DNA of 20,599 bases from a virus: positions 1 through 20,599 of the IMG/VR virus record IMGVR_UViG_3300013126_000307, one strand, 5' to 3'. Of the stretch, positions 6,818 through 16,791 are shown in pieces. The translations under genes and the position numbers were made by a program. Each line of letters opens with the position of its first letter. The first letter of the stretch is position 1. The notes under the pieces are model-generated. The model had not been told where the DNA came from. It did not search any database and saw only the letters and a program-made list of their open reading frames with translations.

Positions 6818-7369
6818 ATGGGAAGTAAAGGGGTTAGTAAGTATGATGATACTTTTAAATTGAATCAGATATACGGAAAATGGTTAATACTTAATGAAAA
6901 AATACACATAGAGGGTGAGGCAAAGGTTTTATGTCGTTGTTTAGAATGTAATAAAACAGAAAAATATGTTCCCGCATATCAGCTAGTAACAGGAGTATCT
7001 AAAAGATGTTCGGTATGTGGATATTCATTAAAGGAAGAAAACAATCCTGCTTGGAAAGGACATGGTAAAGTACCGGGAGAAAAACTTTCAAAAATCGCAA
7101 ATGGTGCAAGGTTACGTAACATTGAGTTTAATCTTACTATTGAGTTTATATCGGAACTTTACGATAAACAAAAGGGTGAATGTTTTTACACAGGTTTACC
7201 TATAACATTTAAAGATAAGACAGCATCTTTAGAAAGAATTGATAGTAATATTGGATATGAAGAGTATAATGTTGTTTGGGTTCATAAAAACGTTAACATA
7301 ATGAAAAGAGATCTATCTTACGACGAATTTTATAATGTTTGCAAACTTGTTGTTGAAAATAAAAAATAA
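6818..7369 (+). CDS. HNH-like homing endonuclease (divergent nuclease core)
   Basis: This 183-residue protein is probably a phage homing endonuclease. The N-terminal half has two Cys pairs (C41/C44 and C64/C67) around KYVPAYQLVTG, a zinc-ribbon DNA-binding module common in such genes. The segment NNPAWKG (76-81) is also typical of the family. The C-terminal half carries C122/YTGLPI, then SLERIDSN (137-144), GYEEYNVVWVH (146-156) and NIMKRDLS (160-167). This matches the HNH variants in which the usual Asp-His pair is replaced by an Arg-Ile-Asp type motif. No classical DHxxP is present, so its catalytic residues are less certain than in the other HNH gene. It stands alone between the reductase and the DUF5522-like gene, behind its own hairpin and promoter-like motif. 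Confidence 0.78.
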   Translation: MGSKGVSKYDDTFKLNQIYGKWLILNEKIHIEGEAKVLCRCLECNKTEKYVPAYQLVTGVSKRCSVCGYSLKEENNPAWKGHGKVPGEKLSKIANGARLRNIEFNLTIEFISELYDKQKGECFYTGLPITFKDKTASLERIDSNIGYEEYNVVWVHKNVNIMKRDLSYDEFYNVCKLVVENKK

Positions 7370-7464: not shown

Positions 7465-7689
7465 ATGACAGTTAACGCATCTAAAGATTGGGTACAAGAA
7501 TTGTTTGTGAAGGAGTTTATGTCGCCGAAACTCCTCCCAAGTGATTTTTATTATGATAATGAAGGTCAAATGGTAATGACAGAATCATATCACAAAAGAC
7601 GAGGTAGATGTTGTGGTAATGGATGTTTAAACTGTCCATATGATCCAAGACACGAAAGAGGTAATATTAACCTTGAAAAAAATCACTGA
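7465..7689 (+). CDS. DUF5522-like small cysteine-rich protein
   Basis: This 74-residue protein ends in a compact Cys motif, CCGNGCLNCPY (residues 49-59), preceded by FYYDNEGQMVMTESYHKRRG. This arrangement is the hallmark of the small DUF5522 family, which I recall mainly from Bacteroidota chromosomes. Its function is not known. The four closely placed Cys residues suggest a metal site. The gene is the last of the replication/metabolism block, and its final four codons and stop form the left arm of a terminator. Its presence suggests acquisition from a Bacteroidota host, which is an inference. The family assignment rests on memory of the motif, not on a search. Confidence 0.75.
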   Translation: MTVNASKDWVQELFVKEFMSPKLLPSDFYYDNEGQMVMTESYHKRRGRCCGNGCLNCPYDPRHERGNINLEKNH

Positions 7690-7745: not shown

Positions 7746-8210
7746 ATGGCGGATGGTTCTACTTATGGTATTATATTTCCTTTTAGAAACACTAGTAAAG
7801 GAACTTATTTTAAACTTTCGGAATTAACTTCAGAAGAAATAAGAAGTAATTTGTTACACTTAATTTTAACAAGAAGGGGTAGTAGATATTATTTACCAGA
7901 TTTTGGTACAAGAATTTATGAATATATATTTGAACCATTAGATGGGTTAACATTTGATTCGATAAGGGCCGAGATACAAGAACAAGTAGATAAATATATA
8001 CCTAATGTTAATATAAATAATATTTCAATTGAACCATACACCGATAGTGAAGATGCTGCAGGGTCTTTAAATACTGATTTACTTGGTACTTCTGAAATTT
8101 ATAAAATACCCGGTCTTGCAACTCAAGAATATACTGCAAAATTAAAAATTGATTATACAGACAATAGTAACGGATTTGGGTCAAATCAATTTATAATAAT
8201 TAACATATAA
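7746..8210 (+). CDS. 25: gp25-like baseplate wedge protein
   Basis: This 154-residue protein belongs to the GPW/gp25 family, a lysozyme-like-fold core part of the wedge in contractile tails. The key block is LLHLILTRRGSRYYLPDFGT (residues 36-55), followed by IYEYIFEPLD: the characteristic run of a helix, an Arg-Gly turn, a Pro-Asp-Phe-Gly motif and the Phe-Glu-Pro helix. The C-terminal part ends in beta strands (YTAKLKIDYT). Residues about 100-125 (EDAAGSLNTDLLG) look like an added loop relative to the roughly 130-residue T4 protein. In T4 gp25 contacts gp6 and gp53 and nucleates the sheath. Here the gp6-like gene follows after only 3 bases, in keeping with that partnership. Confidence 0.92.
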   Translation: MADGSTYGIIFPFRNTSKGTYFKLSELTSEEIRSNLLHLILTRRGSRYYLPDFGTRIYEYIFEPLDGLTFDSIRAEIQEQVDKYIPNVNINNISIEPYTDSEDAAGSLNTDLLGTSEIYKIPGLATQEYTAKLKIDYTDNSNGFGSNQFIIINI

Positions 8211-8213
8211 AAA

Positions 8214-10052
8214 ATGGCGAATAAAAAAATAACATATACCGAAAGAGAGTTTGTTGGATTAAGGCAAGATCTTATTGATTTTACACAACAATATTACCCT
8301 GAGTTAGTACAAAACTTTAACGACGCATCAATTTTTTCCGTGTTGATGGATTTAAATGCGGCTATCGGAGATAACTTACATTACCATATAGATAGAAGTA
8401 TACAAGAAACTGTTTTACAATATGCTCAACAAAGATCATCCATATATAATATTGCAAGAACCTACGGCTTAAAAATACCGGGATATAGACCATCCGTTAC
8501 GGTATTGAATGTGTCGATAAGTGTTGCTCCGTTAGGAGATTCTCCTGATGTTAGATATTTAGGAATATTAAGGGCCGGATCACAATTTTTAGGTGGGGGT
8601 ACGGTATTTGAAAATTTATATGATATTGATTTTTCTTCAGATTATAGTCAAAAAGGATTTAAAAATAGAACGGTAGTTCCGATATTTGATGCCAATAATA
8701 GCCTTAAAAGTTATACTATCACAAAACAAGAAGTGGTAGTTAATGGAACTACAAAAGTATTTAAAAAACCAATCAATTCTTCCGACGTAACTCCGTTTTA
8801 TAATTTATTTTTACCTGAAAGAAATGTACTTAGCGTAACATCAATAATTCAAAAAGATGGGACAAACTACCAAACAGTACCAACTTATGGGGAGTTTATT
8901 ACATCAACTAATAAGTGGTATGAGGTAGATGCGTTAGCTCAAGATAGAATATTTGTTGAAGATCCAACAAAACCAGCAGATAATGCTGGTGTTAAAGTCG
9001 GTAAATTTATAAGAACTGATAACAGATTTATAACAGAATATACACCTGAAGGGTTCATCAAAGTACAATTCGGTGGAGGTACCACAACACCCGATGAACA
9101 ATTAAAAGAATTTACAAGGTTAGGCATACCATTAAATTTACAAGATTACCAAAACAACATAGGGTTAGGTCTTACCGTAAAACCAAACACAACATTATTC
9201 ATTCAATATCGAGTAGGTGGAGGGTTATCATCAAATATTGGTGTAGGGGCAATAAATCAAGTTGGCGTTGTTGATTTTGTGGTAAATGGTCCGTCAAGTA
9301 ATGAAAATCAACAAGTTTTACAATCATTAAATGTAACAAATATTACCGCAGCGATTGGAGGGGCAAACCCACCAACAATAGAAGAAGTTAGAAACATGGT
9401 ATCATTTAATTTTGCAGCTCAAAAAAGAGCGGTGACTTTAAATGATTACAAATCAATAATTGATACGATGCCAGGAAAATTTGGAGCACCATCAAAAGTG
9501 TCTATTGCAGAAAAAGATAACAAGATTGCAATAAAACTTTTAACATTAGATCCAAACGGAAAATTAACACAAACGGTTAATAATAATTTAATTTTAAACA
9601 TTGCTGAATATTTGTCAAACTATAGGATGATTAATGATTATGTTGCCGTTGAGATTGCAAAAGTTATAGACCTTGAATTTGAAATATTTGTAGTACTAGA
9701 AGGAAACACTAATCAAGGACAAGTAATAACACAAATAATTAATTCAGTATCCGATTACATGAGTCCTTCAAAAAGAGAGTTGGGACAAAACCTTAATGTG
9801 TCGGACATAAGAAGGTTAGTACAAGATGTGCCTGGAGTTTTAACATTAGCAAATATAAATATCTTTAATAAAGTAGGTGGTCAATATTCGTCTTCTGAAA
9901 CTTCACAAAGTTATATTGATCCTGCGACAAAACAAATTAACATAATAGATGATACCGTTTTTGCAGAAGCCGACCAAATTTATCAAGTAAGATTTGATAA
10001 CGTAGATATAAAGGTCAGGGTAAAAAATCTCAATACGGTAGACTTTTCTTAA
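8214..10052 (+). CDS. 6: gp6-like baseplate wedge protein (baseplate J family)
   Basis: This 612-residue protein is close in size to T4 gp6 (660), which dimerises into the iris-like ring joining wedges around the hub. The N-terminus (YTEREFVGLRQDLIDFTQQY, then LNAAIGDNLHYHIDRSIQET and ARTYGLKIPGYRP) is the usual helical gp6/baseplate-J opening. Near residues 384-420 stands the family signature, GGANPPTIEEVRNMV, then QKRAVTLNDY and KFGAPSKVSIAEKD. The last 150 residues hold the conserved VIDLEFEIFVVLEG strand region and LNVSDIRRLVQDVPGV. It is preceded by the gp25 homologue and followed by a 71-base gap. No unusual residues or truncation are seen. Confidence 0.92.
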   Translation: MANKKITYTEREFVGLRQDLIDFTQQYYPELVQNFNDASIFSVLMDLNAAIGDNLHYHIDRSIQETVLQYAQQRSSIYNIARTYGLKIPGYRPSVTVLNVSISVAPLGDSPDVRYLGILRAGSQFLGGGTVFENLYDIDFSSDYSQKGFKNRTVVPIFDANNSLKSYTITKQEVVVNGTTKVFKKPINSSDVTPFYNLFLPERNVLSVTSIIQKDGTNYQTVPTYGEFITSTNKWYEVDALAQDRIFVEDPTKPADNAGVKVGKFIRTDNRFITEYTPEGFIKVQFGGGTTTPDEQLKEFTRLGIPLNLQDYQNNIGLGLTVKPNTTLFIQYRVGGGLSSNIGVGAINQVGVVDFVVNGPSSNENQQVLQSLNVTNITAAIGGANPPTIEEVRNMVSFNFAAQKRAVTLNDYKSIIDTMPGKFGAPSKVSIAEKDNKIAIKLLTLDPNGKLTQTVNNNLILNIAEYLSNYRMINDYVAVEIAKVIDLEFEIFVVLEGNTNQGQVITQIINSVSDYMSPSKRELGQNLNVSDIRRLVQDVPGVLTLANINIFNKVGGQYSSSETSQSYIDPATKQINIIDDTVFAEADQIYQVRFDNVDIKVRVKNLNTVDFS

Positions 10053-10123: not shown

Positions 10124-13100
10124 ATGACCAAAAGTTATAGGCTAAGAACCAAAGTAGGTGTAGACCAAAACCTAAGAATTAACATAAACCAAGATTTTGA
10201 TTTTCTTGAAATATTGTCTTTAAAATTAAGACAAGAGGACGTATACACAAGATTTTGTTCAGATTATGGTGTTGTTGTCGGTCGTGTTGTTGCAAATGGT
10301 GGATTTGGTATACCAAATGCTAACGTATCTATTTTTGTACCATTAAATAGTATTGATGAAAATGACCCTGTAATATCGACATTATATCCATATAAAAATT
10401 TAGATCAAAAAAATGAAGACGGGTATAGGTATAATCTTTTACCATATGAAAGAGAATACAACGGACACACGCCAACAGGTACGTTTCCATCAAGAGAGGA
10501 TGTTTTAACTAGAAAAGAAGTATTAGAAATATACGAAAAATATTATAAATATACGGTCAAAACAAACGACAGTGGTGATTTTATGATTGTCGGCGTTCCA
10601 TTAGGTAATCAAAAAATCGTTGTAGATTTGGACCTTTCAAATATGGGTTGTTTCTCTTTAAGACCTACCGATTTAATCAGAATGGGTAGAGGAACTGCAG
10701 AACAATTTGATGGGCAAAGATTTAAAGCGTCTTCTGATTTAGCCTCTTTACCACAGCTTTTTAATACTGCAAAGGATATCGATGTAACACCTTTTTGGGG
10801 AGAACAGGATATTTGTAATATTGGAATTACAAGGGTAGATTTTGATTTAAGGGATTTTAATATTGACATCAAACCACAGGCCACATTTATGGGGTCGATA
10901 TTTTCTTCATCAGAAGAAGATTTTTTAAGAACAAACTGTAAACCTAAAAACGATGTTGGTAATTTATGTGACTTGGTTACTGGTCCTGGTCGTATTTTAG
11001 CCATTAGACAAACTAAAGATTATGATATAGATGGTAGACCAATACTTGAAGAATATAGTTTAGAAAATGGAGGTAATGTAATTGATGACGATGGTGCTTG
11101 GCTTGTGGAAGTGCCGATGAATTTAGATTATGTTATAACTAATGAATTTGGTGATCAGGTGTTATCTGCAGACCCATCGGTTGGGGTACCAACCAAGGGT
11201 AGGTATCGATTTAGAATCAAGTATCAAAATGAGTCAGGATTAAGTGCCCCAATTCAAAGAGCGGATTATTTAGTTCCTAATATTAAAGAGTGGGGATGGA
11301 CTGCTGCCACTGAAAGTTATACTACTGCACCTCCACTTGATACTGTAACACAATTAAAAAACTATGCGTTTAGTTTAGATTGGAATGATTACGGAGATAC
11401 AGGTACCACACTTGGTAATGCAATGATCCAAGAGGCTATTGATTGTAAAGATAGATTTTATGAATTTAATTATAATAAGGTCTATACGGTTTCATCATTT
11501 ATTGATAGATGGAAATGGGGTTATGGAAGATCAAGACATTTAGGGATTAAAGAAATAACGGATAGGTCTTGCATGACTTCAACCAATAGGTTTCCCGTCA
11601 ATGACGGAGTTAGAAACTTCGATTTTATTTTCTTTTTATTCAATTTATTTATAACCATTTCGGCGTTTATTATTTATCCACTTTTGGTTTTGATGCATGT
11701 TTTGGCATTTTTATACCCAATTTTAAGAATTATCGTTAATTTGGTGATTTGGTTAATTAATGTGATAATATATGGTATTTGTATTGTCGTAGCTTCATTA
11801 AGTACCAAATTAAAAAAAGAAGATTGTAAAAAATCAACAATTAAACCACTATCAGAAGATAACCCATTTAAAAGAATATCCTTTCCAATGATAGCTTATC
11901 CTGATTGTGAAGCGTGTCCTTGTGAAAGTTCAGATTTAATTTCAGATGGTGGTGATTTTGCACAACAAGCAAATAATACAATATCTTCAGTTAATACGTC
12001 ACTTTTAGGTGATGTTAACTCAGTTGCGTCATATAATAGAGATTTTCATGCCGGAACCGGACTTTCTCAAGATATAAAAGAATCATATAATACGGCAACA
12101 AACCAACTTTTTTCAGGATATCAATTACAGGGAGATGCTAATAGGAATAAATTAGTGAAATTACCAATTATTGAAATTCCTGAACAATCTACAACAAGTA
12201 ATTTATATATAGGATCCGATGTAACATTAGCTCAATCATTGAATTTAATGAACCAACGAGGAAGGTATTTTGATCCTATCGGTCCAAATAGAATTAAAAC
12301 TACTGTAAAAAATACAAACCCATCAACAAATGTTGTTGAACCTTCACAATCTTTTGAAGACAATATTCTTATTATATTATGTGATCCGGGAACTCTAAGT
12401 AATTTAACACCGGGGCAAATTCTTACTTTTAATAATCCGCAAAGTATAAATGACCCTAACACGACGGGACTTACGGCTGCAAATCAATTTAACACAAATG
12501 CCATTACGGGAACAACACCATATAACGCAACACAGTTAGTGGTAAAACAAATATCAAGTTTAGATCCGACTTGGAGTGTCACACAAAAAACACTTAAACT
12601 AAAAATATCTGAGAATGGAAAACAATATAAATTCAAGGCAGGGACTGAATATTTTCAAGTTATAACTGGTGATACGTATGTAAATTACTTTAACATTACA
12701 AGTACTTCAGAAACAAACACCGCAATCGGACCACGTTGGAATTCAATTTTGAATGAATATCTTTTTAAAAAAATACAATCAATAAATTATGAATATTTTG
12801 ATTTCGCAGTTCCATTACCTAGTACAAGATTAGATGTTTATTCTACTGAATTTTTACAAGGAAAAGATGATTATGAAATTATATTCTTAACAAGAGGGGT
12901 TGACCCATACACTGAGAGGCAAAAAATAGAATTTGACCTTTCTAAGATTTTTGGATATAACTATGGTTCAGGACCGACAATTGATGGTGACTATTATTTG
13001 AATATCCCTATTCAAGATAACACAGGATCGGGACCATGGCATAATGATACGTTAACTCCTGAGTCACATGACATAGTTAACAATACGAATATCAAACTTT

Positions 13101-15076
13101 ATCATGAACCTTATGGGTTTAATGTTGATTTATCACTATTTACTGCATTTACCAACAACTCACCTCACTATTATAATTCAACTGACAAGTCAAGAGTTAA
13201 TGTTAAAGCATACTCTACCGACTCTAATACTATTAATTTAGGGTATTTCACTAACAATGGAGTATCAGCTAAAAACGACAAATTAGCCTTTCAAGTACAT
13301 TATGTTCCACCGACAGGACCTGGATATGATTTATCTCAATATAAACAACAGGGGTTAATTGAAGGGGCGTCAGTGCAGGCAACCACATTCACACCTAGTT
13401 TAATTAGCCCATTAAATCTTGACAATTTTCCTACACTTTTTGCTAGAACGTTTTCACCGGCATATCATTTGGAATCACCTCAAGATATTACAATTACTGC
13501 AAACAATAGATTAGTTTTTAGGTCTGACAGATTGCCTACATCTGATATAACTGAAGTGAGAGGTAATTCATCATTTTCATTACATTTGAATGACAATTTT
13601 GGATTTTATTTGGTGGATGAAAATGGGATTGGTACGATCACTCCTGGTTTGACTGTAACGGCAACAGATAATACTGGAGCTGCTGCAAACTTTGCGGAAG
13701 ATGGGGGGGAATTTACAGATGTTGTAGATTCACTTTCTTGTGAAAAAATGGTCCCACTAAAGTGTTATGAAGGTACGGGGGTAAATTTTGTGGCTAACCC
13801 TGATTGTGATGAAAATAAAATGGGTAAAGACGATGCAAATAAAAGAATAGTTGGAGGGTGTTATTATTTTGTTGATAATCCATTAATTATTTCTTTACCT
13901 AAAGACATTATTGCATTTGAAGAGTGGAAGAGTAGATTCAGATTTAATTTTGCTGCCTGTAGAGGAGTGATAAGTCACGTATTTCAAAACAACTGGATTA
14001 ACGGAACTTTATATATGTTTTCATTTAAAAACGCTAAAAGATTTACAATTTTAGGAGATCTTAAAAGATATAAATATTGTGGTGACCCATTAAGTATTAG
14101 ACCAGGGCAAGGACCATTAGTTTTTACATTTGGAACCACTAACTCATTTTTTTATAGAGCAACCCCCTATCATTACCCATCAAACAAATTCATAGGTCAA
14201 TTACCGAAAAAGATTGATATAAATCCTCTTTTAAACGATCCTTGGGAAAGTGCTGGAAATAATGATTCGGGTTATAAAGGAATGAATGAAAAAAATATAT
14301 TCTTTCCTACAACCGTTATGGACTTAGGACCAAGAGACGAATTTACAAAAGAAATATGTTTTAATCCTCAGTTTGAAGGGTATTTAGTAGATACCTTAAG
14401 ATCTACATCTTTTGATGATGGTGGAGATGTTTTACAATTATTTATTCTTTCACGACTAATTAACTCAAACTTTTGGGGACAGGCGTTAAGTTTAGGAGAT
14501 GCATCAATTAATAGAATTTTTAGTAGGACTGAAGATAGAATTGATGGTGATTTTGCACAATCAATGAGCATTAACTCTGAATATGGAGTAGAAGGGTTTA
14601 GTAGTGATGATTACGATCAAAATGATATATACGTTGAAAATAGTGGAGGAGATCCATTATTTGGTGTTTTCTTTTCTTCAGACACATCAAATAGACAATT
14701 ACTTTCACCTGGTAAAACAAGTTATACTACATTTGGTTACCCTAAAACACAGCAAGTACCGTTATATAAATGGAAAAGTGAATCACAGACAACAATTTTT
14801 GGAAGTGACAAAAACAATTGGGTAACTGTAGGACCATTCTATTCACAACCATACCAAACAATGGATTTTACTCAAACTGAGTATTTTAAACCAGAAAACG
14901 GAGAAAAATTAGGTTATATCTACAATAGGACCTCAAGTTTAACCCCAACACCTTCTTGGTCAAATGGACAAAATGTGGAGTATGTTGTTGGGGCCCCATA
15001 CCATTTTTATTTTGGATTAGGTAAAGGGAAAAGTGCAATGAACAAGTACATAACTAAATATATTTTCAATCAATAA
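10124..15076 (+). CDS. very large virion/baseplate protein with membrane-like segment (positional gp7 analogue)
   Basis: This 1650-residue protein follows gp25- and gp6-like genes, where T4 has wedge protein gp7 (1032 residues), so it is probably a baseplate arm or peripheral tail protein. Residues about 50-170 form a carboxypeptidase-regulatory-like beta sandwich: GRVVANGGFGIPNANVSIFV at the start and NDSGDFMIVGVPLGNQKIVV at the end, with a charged insert between. Residues 499-559 are extremely hydrophobic, enough for two or three membrane helices, with few polar residues and basic residues after them (KLKK, 562-565). A Cys cluster (C568, C595, C598, C600) follows. Residues 640-1650 look like repeated beta-rich, Asn/Thr/Tyr-rich structural modules with a second Cys-rich zone near 1203-1245. 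There is no signal peptide. I see no sequence motif proving homology to gp7. Confidence 0.8.
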   Translation: MTKSYRLRTKVGVDQNLRININQDFDFLEILSLKLRQEDVYTRFCSDYGVVVGRVVANGGFGIPNANVSIFVPLNSIDENDPVISTLYPYKNLDQKNEDGYRYNLLPYEREYNGHTPTGTFPSREDVLTRKEVLEIYEKYYKYTVKTNDSGDFMIVGVPLGNQKIVVDLDLSNMGCFSLRPTDLIRMGRGTAEQFDGQRFKASSDLASLPQLFNTAKDIDVTPFWGEQDICNIGITRVDFDLRDFNIDIKPQATFMGSIFSSSEEDFLRTNCKPKNDVGNLCDLVTGPGRILAIRQTKDYDIDGRPILEEYSLENGGNVIDDDGAWLVEVPMNLDYVITNEFGDQVLSADPSVGVPTKGRYRFRIKYQNESGLSAPIQRADYLVPNIKEWGWTAATESYTTAPPLDTVTQLKNYAFSLDWNDYGDTGTTLGNAMIQEAIDCKDRFYEFNYNKVYTVSSFIDRWKWGYGRSRHLGIKEITDRSCMTSTNRFPVNDGVRNFDFIFFLFNLFITISAFIIYPLLVLMHVLAFLYPILRIIVNLVIWLINVIIYGICIVVASLSTKLKKEDCKKSTIKPLSEDNPFKRISFPMIAYPDCEACPCESSDLISDGGDFAQQANNTISSVNTSLLGDVNSVASYNRDFHAGTGLSQDIKESYNTATNQLFSGYQLQGDANRNKLVKLPIIEIPEQSTTSNLYIGSDVTLAQSLNLMNQRGRYFDPIGPNRIKTTVKNTNPSTNVVEPSQSFEDNILIILCDPGTLSNLTPGQILTFNNPQSINDPNTTGLTAANQFNTNAITGTTPYNATQLVVKQISSLDPTWSVTQKTLKLKISENGKQYKFKAGTEYFQVITGDTYVNYFNITSTSETNTAIGPRWNSILNEYLFKKIQSINYEYFDFAVPLPSTRLDVYSTEFLQGKDDYEIIFLTRGVDPYTERQKIEFDLSKIFGYNYGSGPTIDGDYYLNIPIQDNTGSGPWHNDTLTPESHDIVNNTNIKLYHEPYGFNVDLSLFTAFTNNSPHYYNSTDKSRVNVKAYSTDSNTINLGYFTNNGVSAKNDKLAFQVHYVPPTGPGYDLSQYKQQGLIEGASVQATTFTPSLISPLNLDNFPTLFARTFSPAYHLESPQDITITANNRLVFRSDRLPTSDITEVRGNSSFSLHLNDNFGFYLVDENGIGTITPGLTVTATDNTGAAANFAEDGGEFTDVVDSLSCEKMVPLKCYEGTGVNFVANPDCDENKMGKDDANKRIVGGCYYFVDNPLIISLPKDIIAFEEWKSRFRFNFAACRGVISHVFQNNWINGTLYMFSFKNAKRFTILGDLKRYKYCGDPLSIRPGQGPLVFTFGTTNSFFYRATPYHYPSNKFIGQLPKKIDINPLLNDPWESAGNNDSGYKGMNEKNIFFPTTVMDLGPRDEFTKEICFNPQFEGYLVDTLRSTSFDDGGDVLQLFILSRLINSNFWGQALSLGDASINRIFSRTEDRIDGDFAQSMSINSEYGVEGFSSDDYDQNDIYVENSGGDPLFGVFFSSDTSNRQLLSPGKTSYTTFGYPKTQQVPLYKWKSESQTTIFGSDKNNWVTVGPFYSQPYQTMDFTQTEYFKPENGEKLGYIYNRTSSLTPTPSWSNGQNVEYVVGAPYHFYFGLGKGKSAMNKYITKYIFNQ

Positions 15077-15078
15077 CA

Positions 15079-16791
15079 ATGAGTCAAGAAAGTGAAATAA
15101 GAATTGTATTAGGATCAAAAAGAAATGCCGTCACATCAGATAAAGATGTGGGAATACAGGTACCTCTTTTTGGGGATAGAAATTCTTATACGGAAAACGA
15201 CCGAAATGTATTAATAAATTTAGAAGAAAGATTTAATCTTGAAAGACAAAAAAGTGATACATTCAGATTGTCTGGAAAAATAGTTAATATATTTGATAAC
15301 AGTTTAAGTGGTAAAACAGATTATATTCCGTATAGAAATAATCTTTATTATTTAAAACCCGAAGAGTCAATTACAACTAACGTTTGGAAGGGGTTTCCAC
15401 AATACACTGAGTTTACATTTGGTAGAAATGAAGGAATAACGGGTCACATTCCATTTATTGCAAAAAGTTCGAGTACCTATAACTGGACAACGTATGCGTC
15501 TTACGCTTTTTCAAGCACAACTGCACAAACAATGTCTTATATAGATGAAATTAATAATGTTACAATAAATAGTTTTGTTTGTTCGGATGGTATTCCATTT
15601 GTAATGAAAAGAGGAAAATACAACGGAAAAAATGTTATTTATTTTTATTGTGGAACTCCACATAATTTGACGGAAGGGCAATGGGTGGAACTATCAACAC
15701 CGATCAACAACAAGACTGTGTTTAAAGTTGTCGGATTAGGAGATGGTGGGTATGGTACCGAACAAAACGTATTTTACATATTTAATTTAAAATTTTCATT
15801 CATATCCGCTTTTGATGGAAAAAGTGGTACAATGAAAAGAATAGTCAATTTACAAAATAGCGGAGAAACAAAATCTAGATATTATGTTAGACTTCATAAA
15901 ATTTTAACAGATGTTGACGATGTAAATGTTAAAAAAATAGCGTTTGAAAATAATCCATTTAGTATTAAAAAGAAATTAGAATATTCAGGACTTACCCCCA
16001 ACCAACAACAACGTGTGTCGATTAAAGAAGATTCACAGACTTTTTCTTTTAGTTTTAATAAAGATATCCATGTTAACACATTGGTAGATAACAATGGTAA
16101 ACCAGTGACGGAACTATTTGTAACAATTTTAAATAAGGGTTATATGGGTTGGTTCAATAAACCGGGGTTCCAACAAAGGGCTATTGATATAGGGTGGGAA
16201 TTTAATTTTTTAAAAAACAGTATAGACAATTGGTGGAACCACACTTCATCAATAAATAAAGATAATATTAATGTTGGATCATACGTTTTTAACAATAAAA
16301 CATTTTATTATAATAATGATTTGAAAGTTGGAGATATCATAAAAGGTGATTTTTGTGAGTACAACGATATTGAACAAAAAGAATATGTGTTATCTAAATT
16401 GTATCACAAGTATTCTTTTAACCCTGATTTATTTATAGATAACTCAGCAATTAATTTACCTGCAGGGTATTGCTACATACCACACCATTCAATTCCCATA
16501 AGAGTTTTTAGCGATTATATTGAAAGTTTTTCACAAGGTAATTCATTAGGTCTTCCAATTGTTGGATTACCAAACTATGCGTGGTTTTCTCAATATGAAA
16601 ATAATTGGTTTTGGAGAGATATATATGAATATGGATATGTTGATTCTGAGAATTTAGGATTGGATATACCATTTACAAACGGGGCACATTACCCATATAA
16701 AGATATTACATTTTTACAAACACCAATAAAACGAATAAATTATGTCGAGACAACATTAATAAATCCACCAATATTTGACGATTGTGAGTAG
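15079..16791 (+). CDS. unidentified structural protein, 570 residues
   Basis: This gene starts 2 bases after the large tail gene and is clearly co-transcribed. The product is rich in Asn, Tyr, Phe and Ser and looks beta-structured throughout, as in tail or baseplate proteins. The N-terminus (EIRIVLGSKRNAV) is polar and there is no signal peptide. Residues about 85-140 contain NLYYLKPEE and WKGFPQYTEFTFGRN. The C-terminal third holds aromatic-rich stretches such as NNWFWRDIYEYGYVD. In T4 order this is the place of gp8 (334 residues), but I see no similarity that I can defend. It ends with TAG at 16789-16791, inside the start region of the next gene. Confidence 0.7.
   Translation: MSQESEIRIVLGSKRNAVTSDKDVGIQVPLFGDRNSYTENDRNVLINLEERFNLERQKSDTFRLSGKIVNIFDNSLSGKTDYIPYRNNLYYLKPEESITTNVWKGFPQYTEFTFGRNEGITGHIPFIAKSSSTYNWTTYASYAFSSTTAQTMSYIDEINNVTINSFVCSDGIPFVMKRGKYNGKNVIYFYCGTPHNLTEGQWVELSTPINNKTVFKVVGLGDGGYGTEQNVFYIFNLKFSFISAFDGKSGTMKRIVNLQNSGETKSRYYVRLHKILTDVDDVNVKKIAFENNPFSIKKKLEYSGLTPNQQQRVSIKEDSQTFSFSFNKDIHVNTLVDNNGKPVTELFVTILNKGYMGWFNKPGFQQRAIDIGWEFNFLKNSIDNWWNHTSSINKDNINVGSYVFNNKTFYYNNDLKVGDIIKGDFCEYNDIEQKEYVLSKLYHKYSFNPDLFIDNSAINLPAGYCYIPHHSIPIRVFSDYIESFSQGNSLGLPIVGLPNYAWFSQYENNWFWRDIYEYGYVDSENLGLDIPFTNGAHYPYKDITFLQTPIKRINYVETTLINPPIFDDCE

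Follow-up and report, generated by a model that had tools for sequence, protein, structure and literature searches.

The window, by which we mean the whole stretch of DNA analysed here, comes from an uncultured virus and is 20.6 kb long; in it, genes for RecA/UvsX-like, 5'-3' exonuclease, DnaB-like helicase and ribonucleotide reductase proteins are followed by a baseplate block. The genes of this block, and the parts of X described below, lie on the plus strand. The block comprises a gp25-like baseplate wedge protein or sheath initiator (7746-8210; PF04965, phrog_261), a gp6-like baseplate wedge protein of the Baseplate J type (8214-10052; PF04865, phrog_219), an open reading frame for a 1650-aa protein at the gp7/gpI position of the wedge block, which we call protein X (10124-15076), and, directly downstream of X, an open reading frame for a 570-aa protein of unknown function (15079-16791; 121 of 124 loci).

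This arrangement is kept among the relatives. The gp6 gene lies immediately upstream of X in all 149 eligible loci, and the order gp25-gp6-X, which is that of W-J-I in P2 and of 46-47-48 in Mu, was found in 112 of 112. The tail sheath domain PF04984 was detected at E <= 0.001 in five of nine long relatives, with the match over the cut-off in three; the phages carrying X are thus contractile-tailed, as the sheath gene occurs in the same genomes. The conserved gene order, together with the sheath genes, makes it very probable that X is a component of the baseplate wedge.

Domains and relatives of protein X

Sequence searches of Pfam, PHROG and PDB gave no usable match to X, and no relatives were found among 50,697 phage records, in plasmids or in GTDB genomes. 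The profile of X did not match Immutovirus, Mel-JY01, LR756508, RM378 or T4 in a comparison run without a positive control. A Far-T4 identity of the phage was also considered; the Far-T4 paper contains no baseplate data for comparison. The best match in the viral library was the uncharacterised protein A0A8S5LA66 (Myoviridae sp. ctPuP5), an apparent relative with 34% identity over 571 aligned columns.

We modelled X with AlphaFold2 as two overlapping pieces, both of which cover the hydrophobic segment described below. In fold searches with both models, known folds were matched by the two N-terminal beta-sandwiches only. The first (residues 44-252; 10253-10879) is of the transthyretin or carboxypeptidase-regulatory-like type, with VIA-align Z values of up to 10, and a weak CarboxypepD_reg match in one relative is in line with it. 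The second (residues 253-460; 10880-11503), covered by VIA-align rows to residue 459, is pilin/CnaB-like in part of the alignments. The long helix and the C-terminal two thirds of X had no convincing fold match in the searches made. Solved gp7, gpI or TssG chains were absent among the matches listed for either model, the models being large and only single domains having been tested.

In IMG/VR, three scans gave 291, 288 and 34 confirmed stretches that encode relatives, some of them shared between scans; the relatives in viral contigs number about 290. The aligned set consists of X and 188 relatives (189 sequences) from uncultured viral contigs, with the best 80 taken from the 291 and from the 288. 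In two of the relatives (L069 and L178) X extends across two reading frames, either through a real break or through an assembly error.

A long hydrophobic segment in protein X

The first-pass annotation of this DNA had placed a 61-residue membrane-like segment at residues 499-559 of X, and these residues correspond exactly to bases 11618-11800. It had called the segment almost entirely Phe, Leu, Ile, Val, Trp and Tyr; the segment is indeed strongly hydrophobic, with these six residues at 44 of 61 positions (50 of 61 when Ala, Met, Cys and Gly are included), but the wording is slightly too strong, since the remainder includes Asp500, Arg535, His525, three Asn and two Pro. The mean Kyte-Doolittle hydropathy of 499-559 is 2.20, the best 61-residue value of the protein, whereas 10,000 composition shuffles gave a mean of 0.65 and a maximum of 1.65. 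The best 19-residue window reaches 2.58 (p = 0.005), and the longest run under windows of at least 1.6 spans 66 residues, against a maximum of 50 in 3,000 shuffles. Outside the segment, no hydropathy window of X exceeds 1.14.

X has two windows of membrane-spanning length and hydrophobicity, 501-523 and 536-556, and their summed insertion energies are negative on a biological hydrophobicity scale. Basic residues occur at 497, at 535 and past 559, where the Lys-rich sequence that had also been remarked on (STKLKKEDCKK) follows the segment.

Conservation and variation of the segment

The same insert is present in 189 of 189 aligned sequences, and in each of them the strongest hydrophobic window lies at this site, reaching a hydropathy of up to 3.26. 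Because some of the patterns used to retrieve relatives, which were placed in several parts of X, adjoin the segment or lie within it, a branch lacking the segment could have been missed; none was seen among the 189. Where dS could be estimated, dN/dS of the segment was about 0.06-0.2, indicating purifying selection. Given its retention in all 189 sequences and these dN/dS values, the segment is no accident of composition, and a frameshift or composition artefact is ruled out on the same grounds. The hydrophobic segment is a genuine conserved feature of this family of uncultured phages; it is not described in the sources searched.

Its length is far less constant than its presence. The hydrophobic stretch ranges from 38 to 128 residues among relatives, between flanks that are both fixed (GIKEI..C...PVND upstream and LPM.SYPDC..C.C downstream). 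The number of non-overlapping 19-residue windows of at least 1.6 is one in 22 sequences, two in 53, three in 86 and four in 28, so that at least two spans are possible in 167 of 189, in agreement with the original suggestion of a length sufficient for two or three membrane helices. The first part, residues 499-541 (11618-11746), forms a conserved core with a polar stripe (N507/T511/A514(T)/H525/P532/R535/N539), and it is after this core that the length varies. In two relatives (L163 and L166) a second strongly hydrophobic stretch (2.5) occurs in the C-terminal part, corresponding to X residues ~1033-1070.

Several residues in and around the segment are invariant in all 189 sequences: His525 in its middle (11696-11698), Cys483 upstream (11570-11572), the three Cys of a downstream P-D-C-x-x-C-x-C motif (Cys595, Cys598 and Cys600; 11900-11923) and, likewise, Cys441. 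From their conservation and spacing, Cys483 and Cys595/598/600 possibly constitute a four-Cys metal site; if zinc or an Fe-S cluster were bound there, the group would pin both ends of the hydrophobic excursion together. Residues 272, 282, 1206, 1246, 1279 and 1319 are near-invariant Cys as well, a high number for a virion protein.

Predicted structure of the segment

In both AlphaFold2 models residues 501-559 form a single continuous helix, the pLDDT being about 72-92 for the C-terminal piece and 64-81 for the N-terminal one. Confidence is low in both models for the residues preceding the helix; for those following it (586-618) it is low in one model and good in places in the other. Polar residues at 507, 511, 514, 525, 532, 535, 539 and 546 follow an angular step of ~102 degrees per residue that is phase-coherent over 499-551 (p = 0.0005, family-wide). 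The models and this periodicity suggest one helix whose polar residues form a narrow stripe, ~5/7 of the helix positions being hydrophobic. A two-helix hairpin, for which Pro residues frequent near 515-519 and at 532 leave some room, is disfavoured by the coherent stripe and by both models.

Comparison with T4 gp7

The initial reading had also held that T4 wedge proteins have nothing like this segment, which proved incorrect. T4 gp7 has a 29-residue hydrophobic run at ~886, near its C-terminus. Among 26 T4 proteins examined, most of them from head and tail, no other has a long run, the remaining 25 having 0-19 residues. The segment of X exceeds all 26 in both hydrophobic strength and length. 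This transmembrane-like helix of gp7 is conserved in seven T4-type phages (RFVHP[VI]GFGF..., 1.84-2.07), and the GenBank entry of T4 gp7 notes a predicted integral membrane domain; gp7 was solved, however, as part of the soluble baseplate. Since such a helix works in a soluble baseplate, hydrophobicity at the gp7 position does not by itself imply contact with a membrane, and a membrane-like helix encoded at this position can be buried structure.

X and T4 gp7 have in common that they are large, are encoded directly after gp6 and carry a conserved transmembrane-like helix with His and Pro. They differ in that the run of X is 66 residues long, against 29 in gp7, and that the helix of gp7 lies near the C-terminus. 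Neither sequence nor profile comparison revealed similarity between them (hhalign assigned a probability of 0.1% to the whole protein and of 0.1-0.2% to its parts), and for this reason we refer to X as a protein in the gp7 position and not as a member of the gp7 family. In the (gp6)2-gp7 core bundle, proteins of the gp7 type provide a helical component (PMC10457771), and P1 has a counterpart (PMC12810830); the hydrophobic helix of T4 gp7 would be expected to sit within this bundle.

Discussion

Taken together, these results establish a long hydrophobic segment of membrane-like strength in a baseplate-block protein, as had been claimed, and extend it to every relative examined. What the segment does is a matter of graded likelihood. 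Most faces of the predicted helix are greasy, its flanks are basic and the number of helix lengths varies, and the run is twice as long as that of T4 gp7 and has a higher hydropathy (up to 3.26 in relatives), all of which suggests a membrane role. Such a role is plausible but unproven, because T4 gp7, in the same position, has a greasy helix in a soluble particle. Our preferred reading, to which we give a little less than an even chance, is that the segment is a tethered and shielded membrane-inserting module of a wedge protein in the gp7 position that meets the bilayer at one stage. X would then be a large structural baseplate-wedge protein at the gene position of T4 gp7 and P2 gpI, in which a very hydrophobic helical module with the length of one to four helices would be flexibly tethered between the N-terminal beta domains and the beta-rich C-terminal part, its base perhaps clamped by the conserved Cys group. 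In the virion, of which X is presumed to be a part, the module would most likely be shielded within the assembled baseplate, and upon opening of the baseplate at infection it would most probably insert into the host envelope.

The explanation that competes most closely is that the segment is a buried structural helix, the counterpart of that of T4 gp7, packed with two gp6 chains or with another baseplate partner and never meeting a membrane; we consider this quite possible, though short of probable. A gene order shared with P2 and Mu speaks for it, as does the precedent of gp7, the one long-run protein of the T4 set, which works in the soluble baseplate of the virion. The core bundle requires a helix from a gp7-type protein (PMC10457771), and the models of X contain no other helix comparable in length to 501-559; the strict conservation of His525 and the coherent polar stripe, with its ~3.5-residue period, would suit specific protein packing, and a free virion must in any case keep such a helix away from water. 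Yet the run in X, more than double that of gp7, extends to 128 residues in relatives and differs in length among them, and such variation between fixed flanks is more readily expected of a membrane module than of a rigid interface helix. Burial is further disfavoured by the lack of profile similarity between X and gp7, and by other proteins at comparable positions. P2 gpI (176 aa) and Mu gp48 (180 aa) occupy the same slot in the gp25-gp6-gp7 order but, unlike X, are small and have no hydrophobic run, and in Immutovirus and Mel-JY01 the large proteins adjoining gp6 likewise lack such a hydrophobic helix. The corresponding gp7 place is taken by TssG in another such order (PMC6300606). Covariation between X 499-545 and gp6 1-95 was not enriched, in a weak test (74 effective pairs) that is uninformative.

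An anchor acting in assembly only, with X docking the nascent baseplate to the inner membrane of the host and the segment inert or hidden in the finished virion, seems to us improbable. The membrane-like strength and the Lys-rich flank of the segment would agree with it, and there is a parallel in the thylakoid-anchored contractile injection system (CIS) of Anabaena, a contractile apparatus attached to the membrane via baseplate and fibre extensions, where the fibre-like baseplate partner Cis13 provides the tie by a transmembrane helix; Cis12, in contrast to X, has no predicted transmembrane domain (PMC8894136). Nothing in the present results separates this explanation from that of the shielded module. 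It is very unlikely that X belongs to the hub or tail tip instead of the wedge and blocks the tail lumen with its hydrophobic part: the proximity of the segment to the four-Cys group recalls the tail tips of lambda (the iron-sulfur domain of gpL and the hydrophobic gpI) and RcGTA, but the gene place after gp6 indicates a wedge protein and the Cys spacing of X is unlike that of gpL.

Partial analogues of the proposed membrane-inserting module are found in other tails. Four-Cys Fe-S sites occur in the tail tips of lambda, in gpL (PMC10721106), and of RcGTA, in the hub (PMC7296036), and membrane-active or membrane-directed segments have been proposed by the respective authors for the N-termini of the RcGTA megatron (PMC7296036) and for a hydrophobic region of lambda gpI (PMC10721106). 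Both tips thus resemble X in combining a four-Cys site with a hydrophobic, membrane-directed segment. They differ in that the two elements reside in separate, siphophage-type proteins, with another gene order and other Cys spacing (Cys173, 182, 205 and 212 in gpL; PMC10721106).

A candidate that may work in a similar way is gp9 of phage phi29, a beta-rich tail protein with a hydrophobic insert, although in a podovirus tail knob. Xu et al. (2016) reportedly described its tail loop as pore-forming, and the loop is said to plug the tail lumen.

Little is resolved about how contractile phages, once the sheath has contracted, cross host membranes or seal against them; the documented membrane-active tail segments that we found in the literature belong to non-contractile tails. 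If the preferred reading of a membrane-inserting module is right, baseplate opening would be coupled directly to membrane entry through an integral membrane module in a wedge protein. It is tempting, if rather doubtful, to speculate further that this uncultured contractile-tailed lineage has a giant wedge protein with a shielded multi-span module that is released at baseplate opening, several copies entering the envelope around the tail tube and sealing or anchoring the injection site. If the preferred reading is wrong, X would join T4 gp7 as a second striking example of a soluble baseplate that makes use of a membrane-like helix, and would advise caution when transmembrane segments of phage proteins are annotated automatically. 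In both cases a testable label is obtained for this protein family, for which the searched collections yielded relatives from uncultured viral sequences only.

Some further features of these phages were observed. The open frames with a sheath domain in five of the relatives (L195-L199) are unusually large, with 1063-1281 codons compared with the 659 aa of T4 gp18. In the window, a 74-aa DUF5522 protein (7465-7689; E = 1.3e-16) with a CCGNGCLNCP motif is encoded between the ribonucleotide reductase and gp25 genes. Two further genes lie among the replication genes, one with an HNH-like endonuclease match below the cut-off (1357-1998; E = 0.0099) and the other encoding a 183-aa Cys-containing protein without a Pfam match (6818-7369), and both may possibly be homing endonucleases.
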